NCBI RefSeq assembly: GCF_001637325.1
Contig: NZ_LRXL01000037.1
Coordinates: 496,001 to 560,000, forward strand
Origin: Cochleicola gelatinilyticus
Lineage (GTDB): Bacteria > Bacteroidota > Bacteroidia > Flavobacteriales > Flavobacteriaceae
DNA length: 64,000 bases
Direction: 5' to 3'
A program made the position numbers and the translations under genes. A model generated the notes under the pieces. The model ran no database searches, was not told where the DNA came from, and worked only from the letters and a program-made list of their open reading frames with translations. Shown in pieces: positions 52,414-56,106 of the stretch (within the stretch, counting starts at the first letter, position 1; each line of letters starts with the position of its first letter).

Positions 52414-53259
52414 ATGAAAAAAATTATTCTATCTACTCTTTTGGTTGTCATGAGTTTAAGTGTAACAGCACAAATTGAAACTCCGGCACCAAGTCCGTTC
52501 CAAAAAATTGAGCAAAAAGTAGGATTGACCGATGTTACCCTCGAATATTCACGTCCTTCAATGAAAGGGAGAACCATCTTTGGTGGCCTTGTACCATACA
52601 ATAAATTATGGCGCACAGGAGCCAACGCAAATACCAAGATCACTTTTAGTGATGATGTAATGATTGGTGGAAAAGAAGTTAAAGCTGGATCTTATGGAAT
52701 TTTTACCAAACCTACAGCATCGAGTTGGGAAGTGATCTTCTACGGAGACGCACCAATTTCAGGAATGCCCGAAAACTGGGATGATAGCAAAGTAGCGGCA
52801 AGTGTTACTGCCGAAGTTTATCCATTACCAATTAATATTGAAACGTTTACTATGAGTTTCGATGATTTAACGCTTGATTCAACAATGCTCGGATTTATGT
52901 GGGAAAAGGTCTATGTTGCTGTCCCGATTAAAACGATGACAGATAAACAGGTTTCTGCGTCTATCGATCGTGTGATGAACGGACCAGGAGCTAACGATTA
53001 TTACAGTGCTGCTGTATATTACTTATCTGCTGACAAGGATATAAATAAAGCGAAGCAGTGGATCGATAAGTCGATCGAAATGAATGACAAGCCTGCTTTT
53101 TGGCAACTGCGTCAGAAGTCTTTAATCTACGCTAAGTCGGGCGATAAAAAAGGAGCGATAAAAGCTGCAAAAGAATCTATGGCATTGGCAAAAGAAGCTG
53201 GTAATAAAGATTACGTAGCTTTAAACGAAAAATCATTAAAAGAATGGGGAGCGATGTAA
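52414..53259 (+). CDS. DUF2911 family exported protein with TPR-like tail
   Basis: A 281-residue exported protein. Signal MKKIILSTLLVVMSLSVTAQ, then the DUF2911 domain (about 30-170): QKVGLTDVTLEYSRPSMKGRTIFGGLVPYNKLWRTGANANTKITFSDDVMIGGKEVKAGSYGIFTKP, typical of the family, and FTMSFDDLT. The last 90 residues are helical, TPR-like (GPGANDYYSAAVYYLSADKDINKAKQWIDKSIEMND, KSGDKKGAIKAAKESMALAKEAG). DUF2911 proteins are common in Bacteroidota; function unknown. Followed by a bidirectional terminator. Confidence 0.93.
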   Translation: MKKIILSTLLVVMSLSVTAQIETPAPSPFQKIEQKVGLTDVTLEYSRPSMKGRTIFGGLVPYNKLWRTGANANTKITFSDDVMIGGKEVKAGSYGIFTKPTASSWEVIFYGDAPISGMPENWDDSKVAASVTAEVYPLPINIETFTMSFDDLTLDSTMLGFMWEKVYVAVPIKTMTDKQVSASIDRVMNGPGANDYYSAAVYYLSADKDINKAKQWIDKSIEMNDKPAFWQLRQKSLIYAKSGDKKGAIKAAKESMALAKEAGNKDYVALNEKSLKEWGAM

Positions 53260-53278
53260 GCCTTCCATCTTAAAAAAT

Positions 53279-53317
53279 AAAAAACCTTTTTCATTTAAGA
53301 ATGAAAGAGGTTTTTTT
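53279..53317. terminator. bidirectional terminator, DUF2911 / two-domain protein
   Basis: AAAACCT-TTTCATT / AATGAAAG-AGGTTTT stem with loop TAAG and T/A runs. Confidence 0.85.
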
Positions 53318-53331
53318 ATGAAATAAAATCA

Positions 53332-54315
53332 TTACATCCTTGAAAGGTTTTTCAATTCATTTGTTAATACTCTTTCAAGATCTTTAATTCGTTTGTAGGG
53401 CAAACAGCGTTGTCCGCGTGTGTCGAATTTTAGCTCATTAGAATCGTTGATAATTAAAACGGTTTTTTTTCCTTTGCCCCACGCATAACCAACTTCAAGA
53501 TAAACATTAGGATTTGCAAGACTGAGATCTGCTATTACAAGCTCCGCCGACTCAATGCGTTGCAATACCCAAGACATAATATCTCCTGTAAAACTCTCTA
53601 GATCTGCGCGCTCACACAAATATCCTGCATTATTTACAGCTCCTTGAATACCATAATGAAAAATGTCGTCAAAATCTTCAGCAAATGGCATAGCTACAAA
53701 AACTCTTTTTTTCTCTTCAGAAATTTTACCTGTGGATTCCATTAAGGAGGCAACTGCTTTTCTAGTGTCTATTTTTCTTGAGTTTGGTTTGGGTATCAAC
53801 CCATCGGAAAATATACGGTACAAATTCTCTCGAAGTCTTCCAGAGCGAGATAATGAAAGTTCAGAAAAGATAATTTCTTCAAGTGACTCGGGGTACAAAT
53901 TATTTTCAATTGCCTCGGTGATTCCAGCCAGTTGCGATTTAAATGATTCTACCTCGTCTAAACCATACCCGGGACCATGTATGGTTAGCAATAAGGTTTT
54001 TGCAGCATTGTTGCTTTCTTTTGCTGCGGACATCATTTGAGTGCCAAACGCTCTAATTTCTTTATAGTTTAACTCTTGTAGAGGAGGGGTTCCGATAAAT
54101 AAAAGGTGAGGCGCCGCCACAACTTCATGACTTTCCATAAAATGAAAATTTCCTAAAACCGGCAGATCTTTTGAAATATGTAGTCCTTTTGCTTCTAAAG
54201 CTTCAATTACATGGTGATCCAGCCCATGTGCTTGTGTCGCATATTTCATTCCTAAAATGTCTGCGTTTACAGTAAAGGCATCCTTATTTACGATACTCAC
54301 TTTTATTCCTTCCAT
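53332..54315 (-). CDS. two-domain protein: macro-like N-half, nucleoside deoxyribosyltransferase-like C-half
   Basis: A 327-residue cytosolic protein. Residues about 203-325 match the nucleoside-2-deoxyribosyltransferase-like fold: RVFVAMPFAEDFDDIFHYGIQGAVNNAGYLCERADLESFTGDIMSWVLQRIESAELVIADLSLANPNVYLEVGYAWGKGKKTVLI. Glu274 in YLEVGYA takes the place of the family nucleophile, with Asp263 and Asn268/270 nearby. Residues about 5-140 form an alpha/beta domain resembling macro or M17-aminopeptidase N-domains (NADILGMKYATQ, LLTIHGPGYGLDEVESFKSQLAGI). Such a pairing could sense or cut a nucleotide such as NAD or ADP-ribose. Monocistronic, no defence partner visible. Function is inference. Confidence 0.75.
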   Translation of the reverse strand: MEGIKVSIVNKDAFTVNADILGMKYATQAHGLDHHVIEALEAKGLHISKDLPVLGNFHFMESHEVVAAPHLLFIGTPPLQELNYKEIRAFGTQMMSAAKESNNAAKTLLLTIHGPGYGLDEVESFKSQLAGITEAIENNLYPESLEEIIFSELSLSRSGRLRENLYRIFSDGLIPKPNSRKIDTRKAVASLMESTGKISEEKKRVFVAMPFAEDFDDIFHYGIQGAVNNAGYLCERADLESFTGDIMSWVLQRIESAELVIADLSLANPNVYLEVGYAWGKGKKTVLIINDSNELKFDTRGQRCLPYKRIKDLERVLTNELKNLSRM

Positions 54316-54408
54316 AGTACTCCTTTAAAACTAACTTAAAGATACTAAATTAGTTAAGAAATAAAATTAAGGGTTGTAAATGGTATGGTTTTTCTTATGA
54401 CTTGTATC

Positions 54409-56106
54409 TTAATTAAATTTGGGCTCTGTCTTTTTGGTTGTAGGAAGTACAAATTGTAGCAAGATTGCAATCCCCATTACTAAGGCACAACCTACAACGT
54501 TTAACCACAAGAAAGGCATTAAATCGATCCACCAAATGTAAATTACGATGACTTGCGTAATAAGAGCAGCTATAAATACCGCGCGACTTTTTACATACTT
54601 TATAAAAAAGGCAAGTAGAAATATCCCGAGAACATTTCCGTAGAAAATCGATCCAATAATATTTACCAGTTGAATAAGGTTGTCGAAAAGATTCGCCACA
54701 CAGGCAACCCCAATAGCAATAATTCCCCAGAGCATTGTAAACCATCGAGAGGCAGTTACATATTGTTTGTCGGTTCTTCCGGGCACATTTCTTTTATAAA
54801 GGTCGATTGCTGTTGTAGAACCTAAGGCATTTAATTCTGATGCCGTAGAAGACATCGCAGCACTCAAAATCATGGCGAGTAAAAGCCCAATAATACCCAC
54901 AGGTAAATTATTTAGAATAAAATGAATAAATACATAATCCTTGTCGTTAACCTCTGCATTAGGATTGGCTTTTAAAATAAGTTCTTTCGACTGTTCTCTT
55001 AATTTTTCTTCGGAAGCGTTTAAAGCAGCGATCTCATTTTTAAGTACTGTTTCTTCTGAAGGATCTTCAAGTTTTGCATACGCAATCTGTTTTACCGAAA
55101 TTTGTTTTTCAAGACCCCTTTTCGCAGTTTCTAAGGCTTCGTATTCCTGAGCATATTCTGAAGTCATAACATCTTTCACTGCAGCAGGATTAAAATGAAG
55201 CGGTGAACTATTAAATTGATAAAAAACAAAAACCATAACACCCACTAAAAGAATAAAGAATTGCATGGGTACTTTAAGCATTCCGTTCATGATTAATCCC
55301 ATCTGACTTTCCTTTAAAGATTTTCCAGAGAGGTATCGTTGAACTTGACTTTGATCGGTTCCAAAATAGGAGAGGGCTAGGAAACTTCCACCAATAAGTC
55401 CGCTCCAAAAAGTGTATCTGTTATCGAAATCGAATGAGAAATCGATGATATCCATTTTACCATTGGCACCAGCAATATCGAGTGCTTTAGAAAACGAAAT
55501 ATCTAGCGGAAGGTAATTTAGAATAATTAAAAAAGCTAAGAACATTCCGGCAAAGATTACAGCCATTTGTTGCTTTTGTGTTACACTAACGGCTTTGGTT
55601 CCGCCGCTAACGGTATAAATAATAACCAGCACTCCAATGATGATATTTAAGTAGAATAAATTCCATCCTAATACTGCCGATAAAATGATAGAGGGTGCAA
55701 ATATGGTGATCCCTGCCGCAAGTCCCCGCTGAATTAAAAAAAGAATGGCTGTAAGAGTTCTTGTTTTTAAATCGAATCTGCCTTCGAGATATTCGTATGC
55801 AGTAAATACTTTTAGTTTATGGTAAATCGGAATAAATACCAAACATATAATTACCATCGCGATGGGGAGTCCGAAATAGAATTGTACAAAGCCCATTCCG
55901 TCGTGAAATGCTTGTCCTGGCGTTGATAAAAAAGTAATTGCGCTCGCCTGAGTTGCCATAACGCTTAGTCCAATAGTCCACCAACGGGCATCGTTTCCTC
56001 CTTTTAAATAATCGGTAACATTTTTATTTCCACGTGATTTATACAATCCGTATAGTACGATGAACACAAGAGTCCCAATGAGAATGATCCAATCTATCTG
56101 TTGCAT
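54409..56106 (-). CDS. sodium:solute symporter (SSS family)
   Basis: A 565-residue transporter with about 13 hydrophobic segments. SSS motifs: VTDYLKGGNDARWWTIGLSVMATQASAITFLSTPGQAFHDGMGFVQFYFGLPIAM, GGTKAVSVTQKQQMAVIFAG, SYFGTDQSQVQRYLSGKSLKESQMGLIMNG, SAAMSSTASELNALGSTTAIDLYKR. Between segments 8 and 9 an insertion of about 100 residues contains a predicted coiled coil (EALETAKRGLEKQISVKQIAYAKLE, LKNEIAALNASEEKLREQSKEL), which is not usual. It likely imports a sugar or amino acid with sodium; the substrate may derive from PIG-L action. Cotranscribed with a tiny membrane protein and PIG-L. Confidence 0.93.
   Translation of the reverse strand: MQQIDWIILIGTLVFIVLYGLYKSRGNKNVTDYLKGGNDARWWTIGLSVMATQASAITFLSTPGQAFHDGMGFVQFYFGLPIAMVIICLVFIPIYHKLKVFTAYEYLEGRFDLKTRTLTAILFLIQRGLAAGITIFAPSIILSAVLGWNLFYLNIIIGVLVIIYTVSGGTKAVSVTQKQQMAVIFAGMFLAFLIILNYLPLDISFSKALDIAGANGKMDIIDFSFDFDNRYTFWSGLIGGSFLALSYFGTDQSQVQRYLSGKSLKESQMGLIMNGMLKVPMQFFILLVGVMVFVFYQFNSSPLHFNPAAVKDVMTSEYAQEYEALETAKRGLEKQISVKQIAYAKLEDPSEETVLKNEIAALNASEEKLREQSKELILKANPNAEVNDKDYVFIHFILNNLPVGIIGLLLAMILSAAMSSTASELNALGSTTAIDLYKRNVPGRTDKQYVTASRWFTMLWGIIAIGVACVANLFDNLIQLVNIIGSIFYGNVLGIFLLAFFIKYVKSRAVFIAALITQVIVIYIWWIDLMPFLWLNVVGCALVMGIAILLQFVLPTTKKTEPKFN

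Follow-up and report, generated by a model that had tools for sequence, protein, structure and literature searches.

On the minus strand of the window (the whole 64,000-nucleotide stretch of DNA that was analysed, from a source genome of 3,389,457 bases in 53 contigs, which its gene content suggests to be that of a Bacteroidota) lies a gene at positions 53332..54315 for a 327-residue protein that, judging by its ORF and its full-length relatives, joins a macro-like domain to a C-terminal NDT/TIR-like (DrHyd) domain. Such a fusion had been proposed in a sequence-only reading of this DNA, and it is supported by structural modelling, in which both halves take on folds of these kinds, and by the relatives in sequence. 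The motifs quoted there are all present in the minus-strand ORF of 327 codons at exactly 53332-54315: HGPGYG at residues 113-118, VFVAMPF at 205-211, ERAD at 235-238 and ADLSLANPNVYLEVGYA at 262-278. The macro-like domain, delimited by blocks of pLDDT values in AF2 models and by structure comparison, extends over residues 1-171 (53803..54315, minus strand); its earlier placement at residues 5-140 was right about the domain and wrong about its boundaries. It is followed by a linker of about 30 residues (approximately residues 172-202; 53710..53802, minus strand), seen as low pLDDT between the domains, and then by the NDT/DNPH1/TIR-like domain (residues 203-327 plus the stop codon; 53332..53709, minus strand), assigned from its AF2 model and structure comparison. 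The ORF is not a product of chance, because it has full-length relatives with 44-54% identity, matches to PF05014 and to PADLOC, and recognizable folds in both halves. On one side the gene is flanked by a sodium:solute symporter gene (54409-56106, minus strand; PF00474) and on the other side by a DUF2911 gene (52414-53259, plus strand; PF11138). None of the 10 neighbours scanned in the window, which has 13 likely neighbour genes, matches a PADLOC defence model. The G+C content of the gene is not foreign (38.0%, against a mean of 36.2% and an sd of 2.7 for the 62 ORFs of the window), and a scan for promoters and terminators was uninformative (5 versus 4.4 and 2 versus 1.1 in shuffles).

A macro-like fold in the N-terminal half had been set as a test of the fusion, and this half does model as a macro fold. 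With four full-length relatives in the AF2 run, block pLDDT values of residues 1-171 were 76-97, except for 64 at residues 111-120, the block of lowest confidence in this model; it contains the glycine loop HGPGYG (residues 113-118; 53962..53979, minus strand), located where macro domains have their second phosphate-binding loop. Among the 50 structural matches listed for this half, macro domains and M17 N-domains gave Z scores of 14.3-16.5, the closest being the N-domain of PepA (Z 16.5, 2.5 Å over 164 residues), with macroH2A (Z 15.8, 2.7 Å over 163 residues), Af1521 (Z 14.9) and YmdB (Z 14.8) also present; the top match of Foldseek was macroH2A1.1 (E 7.3e-7). The macro chain of ThsA was absent among these 50 matches, which is no argument against kinship. 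Sequence comparison gave much less. The macro profile PF01661 had no match up to E 10 in the four full-length members and none in the source genome, while Peptidase_M17_N was matched by one of the four (E 0.0039); an identity as M17 aminopeptidase was rejected, as the peptidase half is not among the Pfam matches. A PDB sequence search with the N-terminal half as the query returned nothing, and nothing came of comparing the two halves with each other. An alignment with Escherichia coli YmdB shows agreement at the 'GD...DVxV' start and in the 'GxYG' loop, HGPGYG being aligned with the STGVYG loop of YmdB, and the 'NAAN...GGGGVDGAIH' loop of YmdB is replaced by 'KYAxxxYGLDxxV'. Profile comparison gave a probability of 0.9% for YmdB, though the match falls on the expected loop, and of 0.4% for PepA. 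Seven residues, D12, K24, G31, D33, H113, G114 and G118, are invariant across the four full-length relatives. From the model and these alignments we infer a macro domain that binds a nucleotide but lacks the loop typical of macro hydrolases.

The C-terminal half came out poorly in the full-length AF2 model, which was based on four rows, and was therefore modelled separately with a 33-row alignment, reaching a pLDDT of 92.2. Five of these rows were full-length members of the family, and the other 28 came from the 36 loci carrying the C-terminal domain only; L007, L008, L010-L013, L036 and L038 were excluded because they were truncated, distant or disrupted. Its nearest structure among the 50 matches listed was DNPH1 (Z 16.6, 2.0 Å over 123 residues); MilB (Z 14.8), the TIR domain of SfSTING (Z 14.5) and a cyanobacterial NDT (CtNDT, Z 14.5) were likewise among them, with Z scores of 14.1-16.6 for DNPH1, MilB and the nucleoside 2'-deoxyribosyltransferases. 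TIR domains of SPARTA came up as structural matches too. A PDB search with the 33-row profile yielded matches to an NDT and to Rcl/DNPH1 (E 7e-5). With the whole protein as the query, a phmmer search of the PDB found nothing and a profile search found six weak matches (E 0.55-0.98), all to aryldialkylphosphatase. The C-terminal half matches PF05014 with E 8.4e-5 and 23.1 bits, under the cut-off of 28.8, which is exceeded by some other proteins with this domain (L028, L016 and L017, for example), and it matches the PADLOC model 'Effector, TIR' with E 7e-9, as do all four full-length members. By the fold of its model, it is a member of the class named TIR-DrHyd-SLOG by Iyer et al. (PMC9503650), and falls in the DrHyd/NDT-like branch. 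Glu274 (53494..53496, minus strand), which the sequence-only reading had placed at the nucleophile position, is the predicted catalytic residue: as part of an NxNVxxExG motif it is conserved in all 39 loci that gave an alignment, out of 40 tested, and it is invariant in the 33-row alignment. Loss of this residue among homologues, which the earlier reading had said would refute it, was thus not observed. The loci tested were the 36 with the C-terminal domain only together with L002, L003, L014 and L015 (L012 gave no alignment); they had been picked up through their similarity to the query and are its best-scoring matches.

The likely substrate can be judged from the first strand of this domain. 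NDTs and DNPH1 are described as having a Tyr residue hydrogen-bonded to the catalytic Glu and as being specific for 2'-deoxy substrates, with Phe or Ala usual at the same position in NADase TIR domains (PMC11204291); Tyr24 of DNPH1 corresponds to Phe17 of MilB, where the F17Y change switches the enzyme from CMP to dCMP (PMC10603095, PMC4081090). Structural superposition pairs residue 5 of our model with residue 18 of DNPH1, residue 6 with residue 12 of MilB and residue 5 with residue 1 of CtNDT, so that Phe206 (model residue 11; 53698..53700, minus strand) is predicted at the position of DNPH1 Tyr24, MilB Phe17 and CtNDT Tyr7 if the first strand is ungapped. There is no Tyr in residues 196-215, and Phe occupies the position of Phe206 in 34 of 35 aligned loci. 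As Phe206 resembles the residue in MilB and in NADase TIR domains, a ribonucleotide, NAD+ foremost, is the likelier substrate on this modelled alignment. A plain NDT enzyme was rejected on the missing first-strand Tyr and the score below the PF05014 cut-off. The general acid of DNPH1, Asp80 (PMC10603095), lies 24 residues ahead of its Glu and has no counterpart here, its place in an ungapped alignment being taken by Val250; the chemistry is therefore not fully that of DNPH1 and may be TIR-like, or catalysis may be weak.

The complete protein is rare. Full-length relatives were found in a Saprospiraceae MAG (L002, 54% identity), a Blastocatellia MAG (L003, 50%) and, in the phylum sample, genomes G402 (47%) and G244 (44%, interrupted by two in-frame stop codons). 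Matches occur in 9 of the 199 genomes of the window's family, where the whole length is covered only in the source genome and the other matches begin at residue 189 or beyond; in the phylum sample they occur in 76 of 395 genomes, three over the whole length and the remainder from residue 149 on. A profile of the N-terminal half matches the same three of the 395 genomes and two of 86 in family f18, a set that overlaps the 395; within these overlapping samples the N-terminal half was not found without the C-terminal domain, except for one fragment. Six copies were seen in all, four intact and two broken, a share of broken copies that would be expected if these are defence genes with fast turnover. 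The C-terminal domain itself has varied partners among ten proteins scanned: a TIR domain (L028), TPR-S (L030) and an ORC-CDC6-like NTPase (L010). The first of these (L028:1429-2391 in genome G363; 321 residues, with TIR at residues 4-123 and the NDT/TIR-like domain at the C-terminal end) combines two enzyme folds, related to each other, in a single polypeptide. Matching records numbered 22 for phages and 34 for plasmids, none covering 80% of the query, and no relative was confirmed in viral contigs by a method able to detect only close ones; an origin as a phage or plasmid gene was rejected on these grounds. 'Hypothetical proteins' of Staphylococcus and Streptococcus phages carry the C-terminal domain, at approximately 27-34% identity, without the macro half.

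The genomic surroundings of the family vary; one housekeeping context fixed in all genomes, which the sequence-only reading had said would refute it, is not what the relatives show. Of 24 relatives with a symporter match, six were read at the symporter site and the gene is absent there in all six: in L072 the symporter gene directly neighbours the DUF2911 gene at a distance of about 66 bp, compared with 1149 bp in the window; L071, L074, L075 and L076 have other ORFs between the two, and in L073 there is no DUF2911 gene in the stretch read. The junction (window 53260-54408) thus differs in gene content among L071-L076. Such differing contents imply that the junction is loose, and that either the gene was acquired at this site or the relatives read have lost it. 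In G402 the intact copy has on its upstream side three frames corresponding to consecutive portions of a single type I methyltransferase, and on its downstream side a SIR2-TIR gene (PF13289, PF13676) and an nSTAND1-WD40 gene; this region is likely to be a defence island. In that region (L048:3666-6902, G402:C204), SIR2-TIR is followed by nSTAND1-WD40 beside the broken type I methyltransferase frames. A second fragment in the same genome (L049, G402:C75, approximately 166-385) holds about 60 codons of the 5' end of the gene and runs into a truncated brxC that adjoins complete brxB and brxA genes of BREX; the junction is either a recombination scar or a misassembly. The broken copy of G244 sits among genes read as housekeeping (tsaB-like and gyrA-like), and the 93-residue ORF after it has no Pfam match. 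At L003, three neighbours tested had no Pfam match and two had no PADLOC match. Among the copies whose surroundings were read (in the window, G402, G244 and L003), defence neighbours are seen in one genome only (G402).

Taken together, these observations lead us to favour, with roughly an even chance of being right, a mobile single-gene anti-phage conflict protein of NADase type that would be regulated by its own macro domain. We infer the NADase activity, the ligand, the switching and the role in phage defence in a scheme in which the C-terminal DrHyd/TIR-like domain would cleave a ribonucleotide at its N-glycosidic bond, NAD+ being the likeliest substrate and Glu274 the catalytic residue, and the macro domain would bind an ADP-ribose-like nucleotide without hydrolysing it. 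Binding of this ligand would switch the C-terminal domain on (or hold it off), probably via changed self-association: by analogy, the ligand-bound macro half may gather C-terminal domains and so bring about NAD+ cleavage in the infected cell. Many TIR domains are said to need self-association for NAD+ cleavage, and the macro domains of ThsA oligomerize with ADPR or IAD, the authors stating that they know of no other such macro domain (PMC11204291). A TIR-like DUF4062 protein in E. coli is reported to lower phage plaquing and to be activated by a phage portal (PMC13174449). Counted in favour of the defence reading were both folds, the conservation of Glu274, Phe206 with no Tyr, the TIR-effector matches in PADLOC, rarity and patchiness, absence at the site in six relatives, the G402 neighbours, the broken copies and the finding of the N-terminal half only with the C-terminal domain, one fragment excepted. 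Counted against it were the non-defence neighbours in the window, the L003 neighbours without matches, the housekeeping surroundings in G244, defence neighbours in a single genome, the unmatched PF01661, the uncertain glycine loop, the missing acid Asp, the G+C content and the fact that ligand-driven oligomers are reported for Thoeris only.

A tentative further proposal, possible and clearly less probable, is that of a self-contained sense-and-kill immune protein whose macro domain, in one chain with a DrHyd NADase, would bind an ADP-ribose-type nucleotide, whereupon the protein would assemble and NAD+ be destroyed; the ligand would be either a signal from a neighbour or what the enzyme itself produces, and a single gene would act as a positive-feedback switch for abortive infection. 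It is rather unlikely that the protein is a maker of messengers, in which the C-terminal domain would use NAD+ to produce an ADP-ribose-type signal that acts on a different effector, with the product held or metered by the macro half. TIR and DrHyd domains are reported to produce such signals (PMC9503650), and ThsB makes the ADPR and IAD that are bound by the macro domain of ThsA (PMC11204291), yet no effector gene is found by the window copy or among the tested L003 neighbours. Also unlikely is an N-glycosidase of nucleotide pools or salvage, similar to DNPH1 or MilB, in which the macro half would be an accessory part for structure or regulation, like that of M17 aminopeptidases. Such an enzyme would fit the best structural neighbours of each half among the 50 matches listed (DNPH1 and MilB for one, the N-domain of PepA for the other), the one member that matches Peptidase_M17_N (E 0.0039) and the position of a lone gene amid ordinary genes in the window; a pool enzyme, however, would hardly be present over its whole length in only 1 of 199 family genomes, the Tyr for 2'-deoxy substrates is missing, Val250 takes the place of the acid Asp, and G402 has its defence neighbours. 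Least probable, and quite doubtful, is a toxin restrained in cis by a built-in antitoxin, the macro half binding or removing the product of the C-terminal domain: the N-terminal half was found only with that domain, one fragment apart, but in the YmdB alignment a different sequence stands where macro hydrolases have their NAAN/GGGG loop.

Both halves of the protein are of known kinds, and in the parts of the open-licence literature that we searched their fusion in a single chain was not noticed, although an earlier mention is possible. Should the favoured reading of a self-regulated NADase-type defence protein be true, this would be a single-gene candidate defence family, named by the profile libraries used only as a partial TIR effector, and it would put to the test the idea that an N-glycosidase can be gated by a macro domain. 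With macro domains and M17 N-domains the N-terminal half has its fold in common, and with YmdB the GD start and the GxYG loop, whereas PF01661 is unmatched, the NAAN/GGGG loop has become KYAxxxYGLD and there is no peptidase half. DNPH1, MilB and NDTs share the fold of the C-terminal half and the catalytic Glu; this protein differs in that its first strand lacks a Tyr, nothing corresponds to the acid Asp and a macro domain is attached. The effector of Retron-Eco1 is NDT-like. Retron-Eco1 is described as depleting NAD+, in common with the activity predicted here, and the macro half sets the present protein apart from it. Swarozyc (DUF4062) is reported as a TIR-like NADase that has a conserved Glu and carries an auxiliary domain, as predicted here, but its auxiliary domain has a winged/HTH fold, unlike the macro half (PMC13174449); DUF4062 is not among the Pfam matches of the four members, where HMMER filters may hide weak ones. 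The closest parallel in domain content is with type II Thoeris (TM-macro ThsA and TIR ThsB), which likewise brings a TIR/NDT-like enzyme together with a macro domain in a shared nucleotide pathway, and in which one subfamily of ThsB is reported to have an NDT-like active site (PMC11204291). An identity as type II Thoeris itself was rejected, as there is one chain and no second gene, with no defence-model match among the 10 neighbours scanned, and the macro fold from residue 1 leaves no room for a TM segment. Thoeris is made of two separate genes, while here there is one 327-residue chain with Phe and not Tyr at the specificity position, so that, if the favoured reading holds, nucleotide sensing and NAD destruction would be wired in cis instead of being divided between separate genes as in type II Thoeris.
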